This document shows, piece after piece, positions 35,232 to 43,886 of a stretch of 64,000 nucleotides of DNA. Origin of the DNA: Dehalococcoides mccartyi (GTDB taxonomy: Bacteria > Chloroflexota > Dehalococcoidia > Dehalococcoidales > Dehalococcoidaceae); contig NZ_CP013074.1 of NCBI RefSeq assembly GCF_001889305.1, positions 434,001 through 498,000 on the forward strand. The letters are read 5' to 3'. Position 1 is the stretch's first letter, and the number at the start of each line of letters is the position of its first letter. The position numbers were made by a program, and so were the translations under genes. The notes below the pieces were generated by a model. It searched no databases, was not told the origin of the DNA, and saw only the letters and a program-made list of their open reading frames with translations.

Positions 35232-36095
35232 TCAAGGCTGTTTTAGATGATACATATCCTGATAGGCTTTTTCAAAACCGGGTTCTGTACGGGCAAGGTT
35301 ATCCTTAAGGGTTTGCATACGGTGGGCAAACCCGGCCTTGTCCCCGTTTTTTACCAGTTCAGCCCACTGGGTTGCTCTCTTTATGAAGTCGGCTTCCAGT
35401 TTGGGCAGCTTTGGCATATTCACCTGCAGTGAGGCATACAGATTAGGGTCTTCGGTTAAAACGCTCTTGGTAAGGGTATCCAGCAGGCGGAAGGTGGTAC
35501 CGCCGGCACCGGCTATACCGGGCAGATTTTGCCCCAGCAGGGTATCAGCTGACACTATAGCTATAAAGTGAGCCAGCCCCAGCACTACTGACATCAGCCG
35601 GTCATGCTCTTCCGGGCTGGTCAGGCTGACAGTGCTTTCATGTTTTTCCAGCCAGGTTTTAACCTTTTCGGCAAGTGCAGTTTCTGCTTCGGTGGTAGGT
35701 GTAAGGATAAAGTTATAACCCTTAAGTGATTTTGCCCCCGGCCCGAATACGGGGTGAGTACCCAGTATCCGGCAATGCGGCAAATATTGGTGCATCATCT
35801 CCACCGGGCGTTCTTTTACCGAACACAAGTCAAAAACCAGCTGCTCCCGTTTGGTAAACGGGGCAATTTCCTTCAGGGTGTCTTCAAATGCGTCAATAGG
35901 TACGGATATCACAAGACAGTCCATTTCGGTCAGTTGGTCAGGCTGGGTAATCACCTGAGAGCCTAAGCGGCTGGCTACGGGTGTAAGTTTGGAGGGGTTT
36001 CGCCCCCAAAGCCAAACCTGATGTCCGTTTTCCGTAAGGAAGCGGCCGAACCACTGTCCCATCTTGCCGCTGCCGCCCAGTATGCCTATTTTCAT
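35232..36095 (-). CDS. tyrA: Prephenate dehydrogenase
   Basis: A 287-residue enzyme forming 4-hydroxyphenylpyruvate for tyrosine. Rossmann motif GILGGSGKMGQWFGRFL at the N terminus, then GTHPVFGPGAKSLKGYN, a typical TyrA segment with the catalytic His. No ACT domain, so feedback is not evident. It is the last gene of the nine-gene aromatic operon and overlaps pheA by 4 bp. Confidence 0.93.
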   Translation of the reverse strand: MKIGILGGSGKMGQWFGRFLTENGHQVWLWGRNPSKLTPVASRLGSQVITQPDQLTEMDCLVISVPIDAFEDTLKEIAPFTKREQLVFDLCSVKERPVEMMHQYLPHCRILGTHPVFGPGAKSLKGYNFILTPTTEAETALAEKVKTWLEKHESTVSLTSPEEHDRLMSVVLGLAHFIAIVSADTLLGQNLPGIAGAGGTTFRLLDTLTKSVLTEDPNLYASLQVNMPKLPKLEADFIKRATQWAELVKNGDKAGFAHRMQTLKDNLARTEPGFEKAYQDMYHLKQP

Positions 36096-37168
36096 ATTCG
36101 TTTTTTCATTTTGGGGTAAGACCCAAGCACTTTCATAAATATAACATGGTCTTCGGCTTTTGCCAGCGCCTGTTTAATGTTTTCGTCCTGGCGGTGGCCT
36201 TCTATATCCAGGTAAAAGTTATACTCCCAGGGTTTAAGGCGGGTAGGACGGGATTCCAGCTTGGTCATATTTATTTTTCTAGAGGCCAGTTCCTTTATAA
36301 AGTCATACAGCGCCCCGGCCTGATGTTTAACGGCGAAAACCACTGAAGTTTTATCATTGCCGCTAGGTGCGGAATCCTGCTTGGCCAAGACGAAGAAACG
36401 GGTGTAGTTGTTTATATTATCCTCTATTTCCCGTTCCAGCACTTTCATATTATAAATTACGGCCGCTCTTTCGGAGGCGATGGCCGCCCCGTCTAAAAGG
36501 TGTTTTTCTTTAATCATTTTGACGCTGCCGGCGGTATCGTAGGCCGGTATCAGTTCTGCCCGCAGGTGTTTTAAAAATGACTGGCATTGCCCCAGTGCCT
36601 GGGGGTGGGAATAAATGGTTTTTACCCCTTCCAGAGTGGTTTCGGGGTTGGCTATCAGGCAGTGGGAAACCCTAAGCTCATGTTCGGCGGCAACCATAAG
36701 GTTGGAATCAAGCAGCAGATCATAGGTGCGGGAAATAGAGCCCTCAAGTGAGTTTTCCACCGGCACTACCGCAAAGCGGGCCATTCCCTTTTCCACCGCC
36801 TCAAATGTGGCATCCAGCTGATCGCAGGGTAGGGTGAGAGTGTTTGGACCGAATATTTTCAGGGCGGTTTCTTCGCTGTAAGCACCGGCTGCTCCCTGAA
36901 AGGCTACGGTGAACCGCTGCTGTTTCTTGGATATAAACAGGATTTCCTGGTACAGGGATTCGATATCCTGCGGATCAAGGCCCAGAGATTGGGCTAGTGA
37001 CTGAACTCTGTTTAAAACCTCTGATTCGCGTGAAAGGTCCTGAACAGGAGAATTGGTTTCTTCTTTGACTTTGCCTATCTGGTCGGATACTTCAAGTCGC
37101 TTTGCCATCAGCTTTACCAACTCGGTATCCAGCTCATCTATCTGTTTGCGCAGGTCTGAAAGGTTCAT
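36092..37168 (-). CDS. pheA: Chorismate mutase / prephenate dehydratase (P-protein)
   Basis: A 358-residue fusion. AroQ chorismate mutase (about 1-85, [19 protein letters not shown]), prephenate dehydratase (about 90-275, with [10 protein letters not shown]) and a C-terminal ACT domain with [17 protein letters not shown], the Phe-binding motif for feedback inhibition. It overlaps aroC and tyrA by 4 bp each, so both terminal branches are translationally coupled to the common pathway. Confidence 0.96.
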
Positions 37169-38259
37169 TGTTTTATTACCCTCGGTATCATTCCGGCTCT
37201 CAGTGCCAGATCAGCCAGGACTATACAGGTCATAGCTTCCACTACGGAAACTGCTCTGGGTACGATGCAGGTATCATGACGGCCGCGTATTTCCAGACTG
37301 GTGTTGGTCATGGTATCAATATTTACGGTAGGTTGGGATAAAGATATGGAGGGGGTGGGTTTTACGGCCACCCTGAACTGAAGCGGCATGCCGTCTGAGA
37401 TTCCGCCCAGTACACCGCCGCAGTTGTTGCTGGTGGTGCGTATGTGGTTAGCCTGAATACTAAAAGGGTCGTTGTTTTTTGAACCGCGCAGGCGTGAAGC
37501 TTCAAAGCCCGCCCCGAATTCAACCCCTTTTACGGCCGGAATGGCAAACATAGCTTTGGCCAGTTCACCTTCCAGAGTATCAAACACCGGCTCTCCTAGA
37601 CCAACCGGCAGATTAAACCCTAAGCACTCTACTACCCCGCCCAGACTGTCACCCTCCTCAGCGGCTTGCTGGATAAGTGCCAGCATTTGTTTACTGGCCG
37701 CAAGATCAGGGCAGTTTACATCACTTTCGGAGATGTTCTGGCGGAGGTCTTTGGTTTTAGGCAATTTGGCTACTATTCCTCCCAGTTCGGCGGTATATCC
37801 AATCACCTCAATGCCGATAGTTGAAATAAGTTTACGGGCAATAGCGCCTGCCATAACATGTCCGGCGGTAATCCGTCCTGAGAAACGTCCTCCGCCGCGA
37901 AAATCATTGAAACCGCCGTATTTCACAAAGCCGGTAAAATCCGCATGTCCCGGTCTGATTTTACTGCGGGTGCGTTCATATTCGCTCGAGTCTATATTTC
38001 TGTTCCAGATGACCAGACAAATGGGTGCGCCGGTGGTGAAATTGTTGAATATGCCGGAAAATATTTCTATCCGGTCATCTTCACGGCGCGGCGTGGCATG
38101 CGCTTTTGCCCTGGATTTGCGTTTGTCTACTTCCACCTGGATTTCATCGACATTTATGGCCAGACCGGCCGGAACGCCATCAATTACTACTCCTACGCAG
38201 TCTCCATGGCTTTCGCCGAAACTGGTAATCTGAAACAGTTTTCCCAGACTGTTAGACAT
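37165..38259 (-). CDS. aroC: Chorismate synthase
   Basis: A 364-residue FMN-dependent lyase converting EPSP to chorismate. [18 protein letters not shown] at the N terminus and later [12 protein letters not shown]-type and [13 protein letters not shown] segments are conserved. It overlaps aroA by 8 bp and pheA by 4 bp. Confidence 0.97.
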
Positions 38260-39514
38260 CTTTTATTACCTTTCCGCCGAGGCTTTCCAGTTGCTCCCAG
38301 AAACCGGGGTAGGTTTTGGATACGCACTCAGCATCTGAAATATGGGTTTCTCCCGCAACCGCACCCAGTACACCGAAAGCCATGGCAATACGGTGGTCTC
38401 CGAAGCTGTCAATCTCTGTGCCTTTGGGATATCCGCCGTCAATAATCAGACGATCATCTTCTTCGGTAACATTTATGCCCATAGCAACAAGCCCCTGGCT
38501 TACCGCCCGGATACGGTTGGACTCTTTGATACGCGCCTGACGGACTCCGCTTAAAATACTTTGTCCTTTGGCACAGGCGGCCGCTACTGCCAGTGCAGGC
38601 AGCAAGTCAATGGAGTGGGTAAGGTCTGTGTTTATAGCTGAAAGGGGTTTGGGGCTTACCTTTACCCAGTTTTGGCCGCTTTCTGCTTCTGCCCCCATCT
38701 CGGTGAGGTATTTTATCATTATGCGGTCAGCCTGAAAGCTGTCCGTATCCAGGTTGGATACAAATACCGGGGCTGCAATAGCCCCCAGTGCCAGAAAGCT
38801 TGAGGCTGAAGACCAGTCTCCTTCTACTCGGTATCTGGCGGGCAGGTATGGCTGGGGCGGGATACTTATTTCCTGCCAGTTTATAGAAGAAAAGACCTTG
38901 ATACCAAAGCTTTCCAGTGTTTGTTTAGTCATTTTTAAATACGGCAGTGAAGCCGGCGGTGTAGCCAGATGAATTTCCAGCCCGTTTTTGCAGGCAGGCG
39001 CCATAAGCATAAGTGCTGAAACATATTGAGAGCTTATATTTCCCGGCAGGCTAACCTTTGAACGGGTTATCTCACCGCCCTTGATTACGGTAGTATTGCC
39101 GCGGGTTTCTATTTCTATGCCAAGCTGGTGCAGGGCTTGAATAAGGGGCAGCATGGGGCGTCTCATAAGGGAATGCCCAGCCAGCAGGTGGCATTCAAAT
39201 GGCAGTCTGGCACACACGGCTGACATAAAACGCAGGGTAGCGGCAGATTCGCGGCAGAAGAGGTTGCCTTCAGGTTTTTTGAAGGTATGGCCGGTAATCT
39301 GCCAGCTTCCGTCTTCAGTCTTGGTGTTTATATCTATACCCAGCCCTGAAAGCACCTGTTTGGTAGCCAGCGTATCATCTGCAATCAGCGGGCTTATTAT
39401 ATGGCTTTGGCCGTTTGCCTGGGCAGCTGCAACCAAACCGCGTATGGTATAGCTTTTTGAGGAAGGGACGGCGATTTCCCCGCCGGGTAAGCTTTTAGCC
39501 AGATGTATTTTCAT
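38252..39514 (-). CDS. aroA: 3-phosphoshikimate 1-carboxyvinyltransferase (EPSP synthase)
   Basis: A 420-residue two-domain enzyme joining PEP to shikimate 3-phosphate. [15 protein letters not shown] (N-terminal Lys/Ser), [12 protein letters not shown] and [11 protein letters not shown] are recognised active-site segments. The glyphosate-loop region reads [12 protein letters not shown], where the common form is GNSGTTMRL, a class II-like variation. It overlaps aroK by 20 bp and aroC by 8 bp. Confidence 0.95.
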
Positions 39515-40025
39515 ATTTCCTCAATCTGTTTTCTATTTCTTCACAGACTTCATGGCATAACTTGTTGTGGGTGGAGACTGTAATATCGGCCGCATCTTTG
39601 TATAGAGGCTGCCGGCTTTCAAGTAGTTTTATCATTTTATCCGAACGCTCGGCATTGTATAAAGGGCGGTTGGTATGGTTTCTCAAGCGGGCTTCCAGAT
39701 CTTCGGGGCGGCTTTCCAGGTAGATTACCAGACAGTTTAATCGCATAACACTCAGGTTTTGGGGTCGGGTAACTATACCGCCGCCGCAGTCTATAATCTG
39801 GCCTGATTGCCGGCAGACGTCTTCCAATACTCGGCTTTCCATCTGTCGAAAGTATTCTTCACCTTTTTCTTTGAATATGCTGCTTATGCTTAAACCTTCG
39901 CAGGTTTCTATGCAAGTATCTGTGCTGACCAGTGTTTTACCCAGCTTTTCAGAAAGCAGCTTTGAGACACTGGTTTTACCCGCACCCATAAAGCCTATCA
40001 GGGCGATGTTATTTTTCGTTTTCAT
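39495..40025 (-). CDS. aroK: Shikimate kinase
   Basis: A 176-residue P-loop kinase. Walker [15 protein letters not shown], the STD acidic pair, DCGGGIV and a lid with RNHTNRPLY are seen. It overlaps aroE by 17 bp and aroA by 20 bp, an unusually long run of overlaps. Confidence 0.95.
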
Positions 40026-40869
40026 CTAAAGCCAGCTCTGCTTCTTTCATCATCACCCGGAAAGGGGCTTTTTGGCTTGTCCAGATTTCAAATGACATAG
40101 CACCCTGCCAGACCAGCATTTCCAGCCCGTTTATTATCTTGGCGCCTTTATTTTCAGCCTCTTTCAACAGGCGGGTTTTACACGGGTTGTAAATAGCGTC
40201 TATAACTGTCAGGTCAGGACGCAGGAAACGGGCGGGGACAAGGCTTTGTCCGGTCAGATTTCCCATACCCACAGGTGTGCAGTTTACGATAATATCAGTT
40301 TCGGCTAGGACTTCTTCCAGATTGGTATCATTCAGTTCCAATCCCTGAGCCTTGCCATTAAAACGCAGGCACATTTTGCTAGCCAGGTCCTTGGCTTTTT
40401 CTTCCTGGCGGGCAAGTACAGTCAGGCGTCCGCCCAGTGTGCAAATAGCCAGTGCAATGGCATGGGCACTGCCTCCCGCACCCAGCAAGGCAAAGCGGTG
40501 TTTGGCCGGGGCAATACGGTTGTGTTCAAGTAAACGCACAAAGCCGCCAAAGTCAGTATTGTAACCTTTGAGCACACCGTTTTCATTTACAATGGTGTTT
40601 ACCGCTCCAATCTTTTTGGCAGCGGGGTCAAGTACATCTATATATTTGATAACCTCTATTTTGTGGGGTATGGTTACATTCAGACCGCGTATATTTAAAG
40701 GCCGCATGCTGGCAATTACGTTTTGCAGGTCTTCCGGTTTGGCAGCGACAGTCAAATACAAGTAATTCAGTTTGCAGTATTTGAAGGCCGCATTTTGCAT
40801 AGCCGGCGATATGGAGTGACTTACCGGGTAACCAATAATCCCGAATAATGCATCAGGTATGGTTTTCAT
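40009..40869 (-). CDS. aroE: Shikimate dehydrogenase
   Basis: A 286-residue NADP-dependent reductase of 3-dehydroshikimate. [17 protein letters not shown] binds shikimate, [13 protein letters not shown] carries the catalytic Lys, and [15 protein letters not shown] is the nucleotide motif. It overlaps aroD by 17 bp and aroK by 17 bp. Confidence 0.96.
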
Positions 40870-41521
40870 AATTTACAGACCGGTAGATTTCTATCATTTG
40901 AGCCAGGGTCATCTGACCTGATGCAGACTTATTGCCGTCATTCAGGCTGGCGTAGGTAAAAGGGCTTCCGGCCAGCGGACAGAGTATACGGCTCAGAATG
41001 CCCGGTTCCCCCATGGCAAAAGCGACAATTTCCTTATCCGGCATCTCCTTTATCAAATTAAGCAGCTTAATATTATCATTTATTGAGGCGGCAGTGGTAA
41101 TTACCTTATATATATCCGCCGGATAGGTGAGCATGTCCTTTACAAGAGTTTTGAGTTCAGCGGCGGAAGGAGTGTCAGTAAAATTATGATGGGATAACAA
41201 ACACTTCGCCTGCGGCCTGAGCCGCTTAAGTATTTCCCCAAGGTTGGGGCTGGAATATTCAATATCCAGCATAAATGCACCCGCTGCGGCGGCTTTTTCA
41301 AGTCTGCTTATCCGCTCTTCTTCGCTGCCGCTAAAACTGCCCCCTTCGGCAGCCCTGCGGCAGGTGGCTATAAATGGTTTATTAAGCATTGCTGCTGTTT
41401 CCTGCCAGCTTTCACCCAGAAGGTCCAGCCTTAGTTCATAAAAGGCCGCACCTTCGCTTTTTTTCAGGCTTTCGGCCTCCGGCAGCCGGGTGATTACGCA
41501 ACAGATGGATGGGGTTTTCAT
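40853..41521 (-). CDS. aroD: 3-dehydroquinate dehydratase, type I
   Basis: A 222-residue Schiff-base class I dehydroquinase. FYELRLDLL, the catalytic LLSHHNFTDTP (His) and YKVITTAAS (Schiff-base Lys) are visible. It overlaps aroB by 4 bp and aroE by 17 bp. Confidence 0.94.
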   Translation of the reverse strand: MKTPSICCVITRLPEAESLKKSEGAAFYELRLDLLGESWQETAAMLNKPFIATCRRAAEGGSFSGSEEERISRLEKAAAAGAFMLDIEYSSPNLGEILKRLRPQAKCLLSHHNFTDTPSAAELKTLVKDMLTYPADIYKVITTAASINDNIKLLNLIKEMPDKEIVAFAMGEPGILSRILCPLAGSPFTYASLNDGNKSASGQMTLAQMIEIYRSVNYENHT

Positions 41522-42597
41522 TTCATCTCCTCCAGTATGGAAATGACATCTTCCCTTAAAATATTTTCAGCTATCAAAGGTTCTTCCGGCCTTTTTAAAA
41601 GTATGAAACGTATACGTCCGTCGGATACCTTTTTATCATGGTGCATGGCATCTATAATTTTTTCGGGGTCTATATCTTGGGGTTTGGTGGGCAGACCGAA
41701 ATCAGCTATCAGTTTTTCCAGCCGCAGTACAGTCTCATTTTCACATAAACCCAGTTTTACCGAAAGCCTTGAGGCAAAACACATACCTATAGCTACTGCT
41801 GCCCCGTGGCTCTGGCTGAAAGAGGAAGTACTTTCCAAAGCATGTCCCAGGGTATGCCCGAAGTTAAGTATGTTTCTGATGCCGCGGTCAGTTTCGTCCT
41901 GGCAGACAATGCCGGCTTTGATAGCCGCAGTTTGGCTTATTATATCTTCCATTATCTCCGGAGAGCGGTCTTTGATAGCCTGGGTATTTGTCTCAAGCTG
42001 CTTGAACAGTTCGCTGCTGCCAATAGCGGCACTCTTTATTATTTCCGCCATGCCGCAGGCAAATTCTTTTTCAGGTAGGGTTTTAAGGCAGCTGATATCA
42101 GAAATAACCAGCCTTGGCTGATAGAAACTGCCGATAATATTTTTGATACCGCTATGGTTTACCGCTACCTTGCCGCCGATGCTGGAATCTACCTGTGACA
42201 GCAGGCTGGTAGGCAGATGGATAAGAGGGACGCCCCGCTGGTAGGTAGCGGCCACAAATCCGCTCAAATCGCCTATTACCCCGCCGCCTAAAGCCAGTAT
42301 GGGAGTATTTCTTTCGGCAAAGTGGTTTATCAGCTGGGGATAGATGTGGGCGGCCATATCCAGTGATTTATGTATTTCGCCCTCAGGCAGTTCCAGAAAC
42401 AGGCTTTCAATGCCATTTGCCTCAAGGTGTTTTTTCAGCTTTTTGCCGTAAAGCCTGTTTATATCTATATTGGTTATGACTATTACTCTGTCACAGGGTA
42501 CGTCATCCTTCAGAAGGCTGGCTGTTTCAGACAGCAAGTCACTTCCTATGAGTATTTTGTATTCACGCCCGCTTAGATTAAGCCCTATACTTTTCAA
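41518..42597 (-). CDS. aroB: 3-dehydroquinate synthase
   Basis: A 359-residue NAD- and metal-dependent enzyme. ALGGGVIGDLSGFVAATYQRGV is the signature, shown here in part (GGGVIGDLSGFVAATYQRG), and FGHTLGHALE carries the metal His. It follows aroF by 19 bp and overlaps aroD by 4 bp. Confidence 0.96.
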   Translation of the reverse strand: MKSIGLNLSGREYKILIGSDLLSETASLLKDDVPCDRVIVITNIDINRLYGKKLKKHLEANGIESLFLELPEGEIHKSLDMAAHIYPQLINHFAERNTPILALGGGVIGDLSGFVAATYQRGVPLIHLPTSLLSQVDSSIGGKVAVNHSGIKNIIGSFYQPRLVISDISCLKTLPEKEFACGMAEIIKSAAIGSSELFKQLETNTQAIKDRSPEIMEDIISQTAAIKAGIVCQDETDRGIRNILNFGHTLGHALESTSSFSQSHGAAVAIGMCFASRLSVKLGLCENETVLRLEKLIADFGLPTKPQDIDPEKIIDAMHHDKKVSDGRIRFILLKRPEEPLIAENILREDVISILEEMK

Positions 42598-42616: not shown

Positions 42617-43672
42617 TTAGTGTTTTTTCACCAGTTTGTTTATCTGGCGGCAAGTAGTTATAAGCTCTTTCAGTTCCGGCGGAGTAATCATCTGTGAAGC
42701 ATCTACCAAAGCCTCTGCCGGGTTGGTATGCACTTCAACCATCAGCCCGTTAGCCCCGGCAGCCATGGCAGCACAGCTCATGCTGTATATCAGGTCACGC
42801 CGCCCGGTGGCATGGCTGGGGTCAACCATAATGGGCAAATAGGTTTCCTTCAGGGCTACCGGCACGGCTGCCAAATCCAGATTGTAACGGGTGAAACTTT
42901 TACCTTTTCCCACCGGCACTATGCCTCTTTCGCATAATATTATATCCTTATTGCCCTCTGCGGCTATATATTCTGCAAAGGAAAGGAATTCCTCCATGCT
43001 GGCCCCGAAGTGGCGTTTGTACATAACCGGTTTGCCTTTTCTGGCAACTGTTGCCAGCAGGTCCTGGTCATACATATTGCGTGAACCCACCTGGAGTATA
43101 TCTACAAATTCGGCTACCAAATCCGCCTGGGATTCACCCCGTATCTCGGTCATTACCGCCATCTCAAAGCGTTCACCGGCTTCTTTCAGCCATGACAGGG
43201 CTTCGGTGGCTTCATCCTTGCCGGCAGAGCCCAGCCCCTGGAAAGAATGGACAGATGAGCGGGGTTTGTAAACGCCGCCTCTTAGTATCTGGGCACCAGC
43301 CATCTTTGCCCCTTCGGCTATCTTCATCAGGGCTTCTTTGCTTTCTACCGCGCAAGGTCCGGCAATGAAGACAGGCTCGTCCCCGCCGATAGTTATATTT
43401 TTTACTTTTATTTCACGGGTCAACCCCTCAGCCTGCCACAGGTTTGAGTATTCGCGGCTGATAAGCTTGTACGGGGTTTCTACCATACGGGCTTCCTTGA
43501 CACCGGGCAAGCTGGAAAAGTAAGCAAACGGGATGGATTTTTCATCTCCTATCAGGCCGATAATGGTTCTGAACGCCCCCTTTGAAACGTCGGTCTTGAG
43601 ACCGCAGCGGCGAACCTCGACAATTACGTTTTCTAGCTCTTCCGGGGTGGCATCCTTTTTCATGATAATCAT
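42617..43672 (-). CDS. aroF: 3-deoxy-7-phosphoheptulonate synthase (DAHP synthase), type I-beta
   Basis: A 351-residue first enzyme of the shikimate pathway. An N-terminal ferredoxin-like regulatory domain (about 1-70) precedes the barrel, as in Thermotoga-type enzymes where Phe or Tyr inhibit. IAGPCAVESKEAL and ILRGGVYKPRSSVHSFQG are the PEP and phosphate-binding segments. AGGAG lies upstream of the start. It is the first structural gene after the attenuator. Confidence 0.96.
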   Translation of the reverse strand: MIIMKKDATPEELENVIVEVRRCGLKTDVSKGAFRTIIGLIGDEKSIPFAYFSSLPGVKEARMVETPYKLISREYSNLWQAEGLTREIKVKNITIGGDEPVFIAGPCAVESKEALMKIAEGAKMAGAQILRGGVYKPRSSVHSFQGLGSAGKDEATEALSWLKEAGERFEMAVMTEIRGESQADLVAEFVDILQVGSRNMYDQDLLATVARKGKPVMYKRHFGASMEEFLSFAEYIAAEGNKDIILCERGIVPVGKGKSFTRYNLDLAAVPVALKETYLPIMVDPSHATGRRDLIYSMSCAAMAAGANGLMVEVHTNPAEALVDASQMITPPELKELITTCRQINKLVKKH

Positions 43673-43713
43673 TGTTTGCTTTCTCCTTTGCTTTTTATAC
43701 CCGTATAAATCAA

Positions 43714-43740
43714 AAATCCTCCCGTTGCCTGGGAGGATTT
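43714..43740 (-). terminator. Attenuator terminator before aroF
   Basis: On the minus strand AAATCCTCCC, a 7-base loop, GGGAGGATTT, then TTGATTT. This 10 bp perfect stem with T-run sits between the leader ORF and aroF, so it would stop aro transcription unless prevented. Confidence 0.88.
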
Positions 43741-43807
43741 CTAACTTACTAACTGGTGATTATTGATTTTTTAGTAAAACGTTATCTCCCAAGCAAACTT
43801 GCCTTGG
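43725..43807 (-). promoter_or_regulatory. Attenuator alternative structures (pause hairpin and antiterminator)
   Basis: Minus-strand RNA. Segments 1:2 (43789-43807) form a CCAAG/CUUGG-based hairpin within the last leader codons. Segment 2, UUGCUUGGGAG (43786-43796), can instead pair over 11 bp with segment 3, CUCCCAGGCAA (43725-43735), with only one G-U pair. Segment 3 is the left arm and loop of the terminator, so 2:3 pairing excludes termination. Segments 1 and 3 share AGGCAA, as expected for competing partners. Confidence 0.8.
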
Positions 43808-43847
43808 TAAAGTAATAATAGTTCTTAAAGGATTTAACGTTTAACAT
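43782..43847 (-). CDS. Aromatic operon leader peptide (21 codons)
   Basis: The ORF begins ATG at 43847 and ends TAA at 43782-43784. It carries Phe at codon 7 and an uninterrupted Tyr-Tyr-Tyr-Phe run at codons 10-13, then nine codons that overlap the 1:2 hairpin. Stalling of a ribosome at the Tyr/Phe codons would cover segment 1 and free segment 2 for antitermination, raising expression of the Phe/Tyr pathway when charged tRNA is scarce. No Shine-Dalgarno is evident; the promoter suggests a near-leaderless mRNA. Confidence 0.8.
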   Translation of the reverse strand: MLNVKSFKNYYYFTKASLLGR

Positions 43848-43873
43848 AGCTGAATGACAATAGCATAGCTGAA
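43845..43873. repeat. Direct repeat of 10 bp at the aro transcription start
   Basis: CATAGCTGAA occurs at 43845-43854 and again at 43864-43873, 19 bp apart. One copy covers the leader start codon and probable transcript start, the other lies in the promoter spacer. It could be an operator or a small duplication. Confidence 0.4.
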
Positions 43874-43886
43874 AAGGGTTTGTCAA
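43857..43886 (-). promoter_or_regulatory. Promoter of the aromatic operon
   Basis: Minus strand TTGACA (43881-43886), 18 bp, TATTGT (43857-43862). The expected start point is about 43849-43851, only two to four bases before the leader ATG at 43847. Confidence 0.6.

Follow-up and report, generated by a model that had tools for sequence, protein, structure and literature searches.

The nearest described precedent for the control region considered here is the aroR-aroF attenuator of C. glutamicum (Neshat et al. 2014, reviewed in PMC11802643; PMC4046766), which has a Phe-Tyr-Phe leader ahead of a DAHP synthase operon, with ribosome stalling relieving termination and a reported response to Phe and not to Tyr. 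The E. coli pheA, pheST and trp leaders obey the same 1:2/2:3/3:4 pairing logic, with control codons for the product of the regulated genes (PMC11802643). Leader ORFs that begin where the transcript does or close to it, or that are devoid of a ribosome binding site, have been described too, namely the leaderless rnTrpL peptide of S. meliloti (PMC7298713) and the leader of C. glutamicum ilvBNC (cited in PMC4046766); these respond to Trp or to branched-chain amino acids and belong to Proteobacteria or Actinobacteria. In Dehalococcoides, T-boxes have been reported at trpE and ileS (PMC2494555); they too act on termination according to the charging state of tRNA, and in the same genomes, but they bind the tRNA directly and involve no leader peptide. 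A search of open-licence papers returned no report of a leader-peptide attenuator for Dehalococcoides or Chloroflexota, and the preliminary description of the present locus knew of none for a complete shikimate operon of the phylum.

In the window, i.e. the whole 64 000-nucleotide stretch of Dehalococcoides mccartyi DNA that was analysed, a nine-gene aro/phe/tyr operon is preceded by what is, with high confidence, a ribosome-mediated transcription attenuator. With respect to the C. glutamicum system, the differences are the phylum, the Tyr-rich leaders, the control of a whole shikimate-Phe-Tyr operon and the reuse of the switch elsewhere, while the E. coli leaders sense one amino acid each and two or three would be sensed here. 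A leaderless start is not a known feature of the E. coli leaders. Comparison with the corresponding Rfam families (Phe_leader, RF01859; Trp_leader, RF00513) gave Phe_leader as the best match, at 24.6 bits against a cut-off of 55, which does not make the leader a member; a match to the hairpin was obtained on the opposite strand as well. Ribosome-mediated attenuation is an already known mechanism; what we rate as new are the phylum, the whole-pathway operon, the multi-aromatic codons, the probable leaderless start and the regulon-wide reuse.

The leader, its operon and the alternative RNA folds

The nine genes, all on the minus strand and named from NCBIfam models, abut or overlap: aroF, encoding DAHP synthase, comes first (42617–43672; NF006421, TIGR01361), followed by aroB (41518–42597; TIGR01357), aroD (40853–41521; TIGR01093), aroE (40009–40869; NF001322, TIGR00507), the shikimate kinase gene aroK (39495–40025), which scores under the curated cut-off of its best model, aroA (38252–39514; TIGR01356), aroC (37165–38259; TIGR00033), pheA for chorismate mutase/prephenate dehydratase (36092–37168; NF008865) and tyrA for prephenate dehydrogenase (35232–36095; NF006409). 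Within the operon, a promoter and terminator scan listed nothing convincing as a terminator on the minus strand, the same scan having also missed the real terminator upstream of it.

The leader ORF, read directly from the sequence, spans 43782–43847 on the minus strand (ATG at 43847–43845, stop codon TAA at 43784–43782) and encodes MLNVKSFKNYYYFTKASLLGR in 21 codons. Phe7 (43829–43827) and the control run Tyr10-Tyr11-Tyr12-Phe13 (TAT TAT TAC TTT, 43809–43820), as given in the preliminary description, were confirmed base by base, its coordinates all proving correct, and a genus-level comparison of three species showed control codons that are identical save for one synonymous TAT/TAC change. Upstream, a sigma-70-like promoter is predicted on the same strand (TTGACA-18 bp-TATTGT with an extended −10 TG; 43857–43886), from which we infer a transcription start at approximately 43850, so that the ATG would lie at about +4 behind a 5′UTR of some 3 nt. 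Since the ATG in the window's family follows TTGACA by 36–39 nt and has no Shine-Dalgarno sequence, the leader mRNA is probably leaderless. Spacings of 36–41 nt between TTGAC and ATG were found in 30 loci, all 11 family genomes among them, and a Shine-Dalgarno match of 5/6 occurs in none (0/30), the transcription start sites being predictions. Another 42 loci have spacings of 46–69 nt, with a somewhat better average Shine-Dalgarno pairing and a 5/6 match in 4 of them; the aroF gene proper carries a Shine-Dalgarno sequence in 67 of 77 loci.

The RNA downstream of the control codons can adopt the three pairings known from classical attenuators. Segment 1 (43798–43807, minus strand as for all that follow) forms the 5′ side of the 1:2 hairpin and has AGGCAA in common with segment 3; segment 2 (TTGCTTGGGAG, 43786–43796), the 5′ side of the antiterminator, would lie under a ribosome halted at the leader stop codon; segment 3 (CTCCCAGGCAA, 43725–43735) is the partner of either segment 2 in the antiterminator or segment 4 in the terminator. 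The 2:3 helix of 11 bp with one G-U pair that had been proposed was recovered as the top duplex (−19.9 kcal/mol), and in the kinetic fold of the window genus it is lengthened by a further helix inside it (43778–43771/43752–43745), formed within the spacer (43745–43778). The intrinsic terminator with its T-run occupies 43710–43744 (core, 43740–43714; 5′ arm, 43740–43731); its 3:4 stem (AAATCCTCCC/GGGAGGATTT) has the 10 bp claimed for it, closes the loop AGGCAAC and reaches 14–19 bp once flanking A/U pairs are counted. The 1:2 hairpin (43807–43789) is also present, with just 5 bp in the window genus, and is the weakest element. As a whole, the leader RNA folds better than its dinucleotide shuffles (z = −5.0, 0/200 as good). 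At the gathering threshold the window has no Rfam match, T-box RF00230 included, and below the threshold the hits to the leader are confined to the hairpin.

When a modelled ribosome footprint was imposed on the equilibrium fold, the terminator was favoured in every case; thus, any effect of the 2:3 helix has to be a kinetic one, in line with classical attenuation. In the kinetic fold, with RNA polymerase at the end of segment 3, the probability of 2:3 was 0.91 with the ribosome at Tyr12 and 0 with the ribosome at the stop codon, the modelled footprint being displaced by one base relative to the codon coordinates above, a shift that is not expected to alter the outcome. In the modelled geometry, a ribosome at the control codons leaves segment 2 free and one at the stop codon covers it, as required of an attenuator.

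By taking these elements together, the following course of events can be proposed. RNA polymerase would start at approximately 43850 and a ribosome would translate the probably leaderless 21-codon peptide; on shortage of Tyr-tRNA or Phe-tRNA the ribosome would stall at codons 10–13, leaving segment 2 free to pair with the emerging segment 3, so that the 3:4 terminator could not form and the nine genes would be transcribed. With plentiful charged tRNA, the ribosome would reach the stop codon and cover segment 2, 3:4 would form and transcription would end near 43712. The switch thus very probably lets the operon be transcribed only when Tyr or Phe runs short. How much Tyr contributes to the response is less certain, because the comparable Phe-Tyr-Phe leader of C. 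glutamicum responded to Phe and not to Tyr (PMC11802643).

Conservation and covariation across Dehalococcoidia

Relatives of aroF were gathered from named genomes, from 11 genomes of the window's family and from the phylum. An aromatic-rich leader ORF and a terminator are found at all of the 78 Dehalococcoidia aroF loci examined, and the nine-gene order is kept, with few exceptions, wherever the contig is long enough. For 77 curated loci, which were picked with the leader in mind, the 8-codon aromatic cluster includes Tyr at 76 loci, Phe at 74 and Trp at 32; Trp codons are thus found in many relatives and are absent from the window genus. Tyr is encoded by TAT 169 times and by TAC 128 times in these leaders. 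The 78th locus (L074) has a sparser leader, beginning MPFYFVPEGIYNDYF, and the same terminator. A fixed rule, independent of such picking, was applied to the upstream regions with random 320-nt windows as the control: an ORF with at least 4 aromatic residues in 8 occurs in 65 of 66 aroF upstream regions and in 6.4% of the random windows, and one with at least 6 in 8 occurs in 50 of 66 and in 0 of 1953, respectively.

The 2:3 pairing is better than in dinucleotide shuffles at 60 of 66 loci, and segments 2 and 3 pair better with their own partners than with swapped ones (−19.4 versus −15.4 kcal/mol; 0/5000). In an alignment of 42 sequences (A1), on which covariation was counted, standard pairs make up 90.4% of the 2:3 helix versus 82.5 ± 0.9 in shuffles, double-changed cells number 40 versus 13.2 (0/500), and versions of the helix slid out of register are at most 69% paired. 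On the aroF tree, Watson-Crick pair types changed at least five times at each of two columns and three times at a third; among independent pairs at these columns the partner base moved along or stayed, never the opposite, the pairs being too few for a significant sign test. The arms of the 3:4 terminator swap C-G, T-A, A-T and G-C pairs in a compensatory manner across the relatives, as scored by per-locus stems, the terminator loop shifting register between subgroups so that column counts are unusable; eight loci missed by a simple terminator finder on account of stem mismatches were placed by hand. For the 1:2 hairpin, 69% of cells are paired across the relatives, above most but not all controls, and covariation is weaker than for 2:3, so that overall support for this hairpin is weak.

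An alignment across relatives, suggested as a check in the preliminary description, which counted absence of conservation as refuting, found the leader ORF, its aromatic codons, both the 2:3 and the 3:4 helix and the operon conserved across Dehalococcoidia, with covariation of 2:3. The proposal that Tyr and Phe supply controls the nine aro/phe/tyr genes is supported by this conservation, by covariation and by the operon context.

A few loci deserve separate mention. Two stand-alone aroF paralogues (L057, L061) retain the same leader, Phe-rich with Trp in their case. No leader was found at three archaeal-labelled aroF relatives (L066, L070 and L071; one uncultured archaeon and two Bathyarchaeota), whose aroF-aroB genes are 56–61% identical and may reflect gene transfer or mis-binning. 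A distant aroF (45% identity) in another Chloroflexota class (L123, genome G086) has a leader ORF containing CAYYFYRFFWYY and a terminator. The family genomes also contain second copies of DAHP synthase, and inspection by eye of the 200 nt upstream of these revealed no comparable leader.

Related leaders at other operons

A covariance model of the switch (R1) was searched against 294 genomes of the class. Among 55 hits inspected, 22 lie before DAHP synthase genes and 21 before one conserved acyl-CoA-ligase-like gene, the remaining 12 being before other genes or chance-like. Weak hits under approximately 24 bits (e.g. L162, L168, L169) and two at approximately 26 bits (L188, L190) had the look of chance terminators and were dropped. 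One site is in the window's own genome, outside the window (G000:C1:889869–889986, minus strand); it scores 19.6 bits, versus up to 49 bits for its orthologues in the family. The scope of the switch thus proved wider than first claimed, the same switch standing before at least one further operon of the genome.

The leader at this second site, MKYAGYTYFYFMFTGRTLCALSGAADE, has its ATG approximately 35 nt after TTGACA and a mixture of Tyr and Phe codons. The operon behind it (region G000:C1:881000–890030; L170, L160) is conserved in the family and comprises genes for an AMP ligase, LivH- and LivM-like permeases, two substrate-binding proteins, a LivF-like ATPase, a PaaK-like ligase and a LivG-like ATPase, none of which reaches an equivalog cut-off, so that homology assigns no substrates. 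Divergent from it are genes that resemble iorA and iorB, so named from similarity to the genes of genome G555 and from general features of the family; in the window genome they have no leader of their own. In another genome (L166/L175), a leader precedes an AMP ligase gene followed by iorA-iorB-like genes. Control regions at aroF are Tyr-rich (Y 27%, F 15%, W 4%), whereas Phe predominates in those of the ligase operon (F 26%, Y 8%, W 0), the leaders of which are Phe-rich in most relatives.

Leaders of the same architecture were also observed before pheST (Phe codons), trpE (Trp-Trp-Trp), metY/metX (Met-Met-Met), a TRAP-type binding protein gene (Tyr) and a HisC-family aminotransferase gene (a run of eight Tyr), at L185, L189, L191, L176 and L173, and Leu/Val/Ile-rich leader ORFs with terminators precede acetolactate-synthase-like (ilvB-like) genes of other Chloroflexota classes (L203, L205, L209). 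The HisC assignment comes from a model scan and the pheST, trpE, metY/metX, TRAP and ilvB-like names from reading of the sequence. Attenuation thus looks phylum-wide in Chloroflexota. That the codon content of the leader follows the downstream gene is the strongest sign that the codons are sensed.

The same observation bears on the other explanations that can be considered. The terminator could be real and governed by another sensor, such as a T-box, a riboswitch or an RNA-binding protein, the small ORF being incidental; T-boxes do occur in the same genome, at trpE, and are on record for ileS and trpE in Dehalococcoides (PMC2494555), but the Rfam hits in the window are sub-threshold and lie over the hairpin, in-frame aromatic codons are found in essentially all aroF relatives and their identity follows the regulated gene, which makes such a sensor very unlikely. 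A short peptide with an aromatic cluster would also be compatible with ligand-dependent arrest, in which the nascent chain would halt its own ribosome upon binding of the free amino acid, Tyr or Phe, with no sensing of uncharged tRNA; TnaC, with Trp as the ligand, is a precedent (PMC8429421). Here, however, the sequence outside the aromatic run varies widely, the order of Tyr, Phe and Trp is not fixed, and leaders of the same architecture carry Trp, Met or Leu/Val/Ile codons instead, depending on the gene. A variable peptide with gene-dependent codon switching argues for codon sensing and not for a fixed arrest motif, and arrest is likewise very unlikely.

A small ORF arising by chance before an ordinary hairpin is not in itself a rare object, since an ORF with 3 aromatic residues in 8 turns up in 28% of random windows; the frequencies under the fixed rule (65/66 versus 6.4% at 4 or more, 50/66 versus 0/1953 at 6 or more) and the 2:3 covariation refute this reading, the probability of which is negligible.

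A possible aromatic regulon and its implications

Trp may be handled separately. In the same genome a T-box (RF00230, 98.8 bits; L106 1114–1381, G000) lies before trpE, and not before aroF, and a second DAHP synthase gene is found approximately 4 kb downstream of trpE. Trp biosynthesis may therefore have an entry enzyme of its own, and a Trp-dedicated entry enzyme fits the absence of Trp codons in the aro leader of the window genus.

For Phe and Tyr, the chances are about even that the aro attenuator belongs to an aromatic regulon run by leader peptides throughout the class, and that this regulon includes a route for arylacetate salvage. Methanogens have been reported to obtain Phe and Tyr through the reductive carboxylation of arylacetates, and iorAB encodes indolepyruvate:ferredoxin oxidoreductase (IOR). 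The putative route would consist of the Liv-type importer, the AMP ligase and the PaaK-like ligase, acting as a phenylacetate-CoA ligase, beside the iorAB-like genes; going by predicted functions, each of the steps, namely import, CoA activation, IOR and transamination, has genes under or adjoining such leaders. On this hypothesis, arylacetates would serve organohalide-respiring Dehalococcoidia as precursors of Phe and Tyr via reductive carboxylation, and a transporter/ligase operon with the appearance of branched-chain or fatty-acid metabolism would function in the biosynthesis of aromatic amino acids.

These observations extend classical attenuation, mainly studied in Proteobacteria and Actinobacteria, to Chloroflexota, where a complete shikimate operon is probably governed by a single switch responsive to two or three of the aromatic amino acids. 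The coexistence of a Trp T-box and Tyr/Phe leader peptides in one genome makes two sensors of tRNA charging directly comparable, and a homologous switch whose start is probably leaderless in one branch and leadered in another represents a natural experiment on the initiation of leader-peptide translation. Dehalococcoidia are genetically difficult, and regulatory codons yield functional predictions that do not depend on genetics, as in the case of the Liv/ligase operon, which its Phe-rich leaders point to Phe metabolism.
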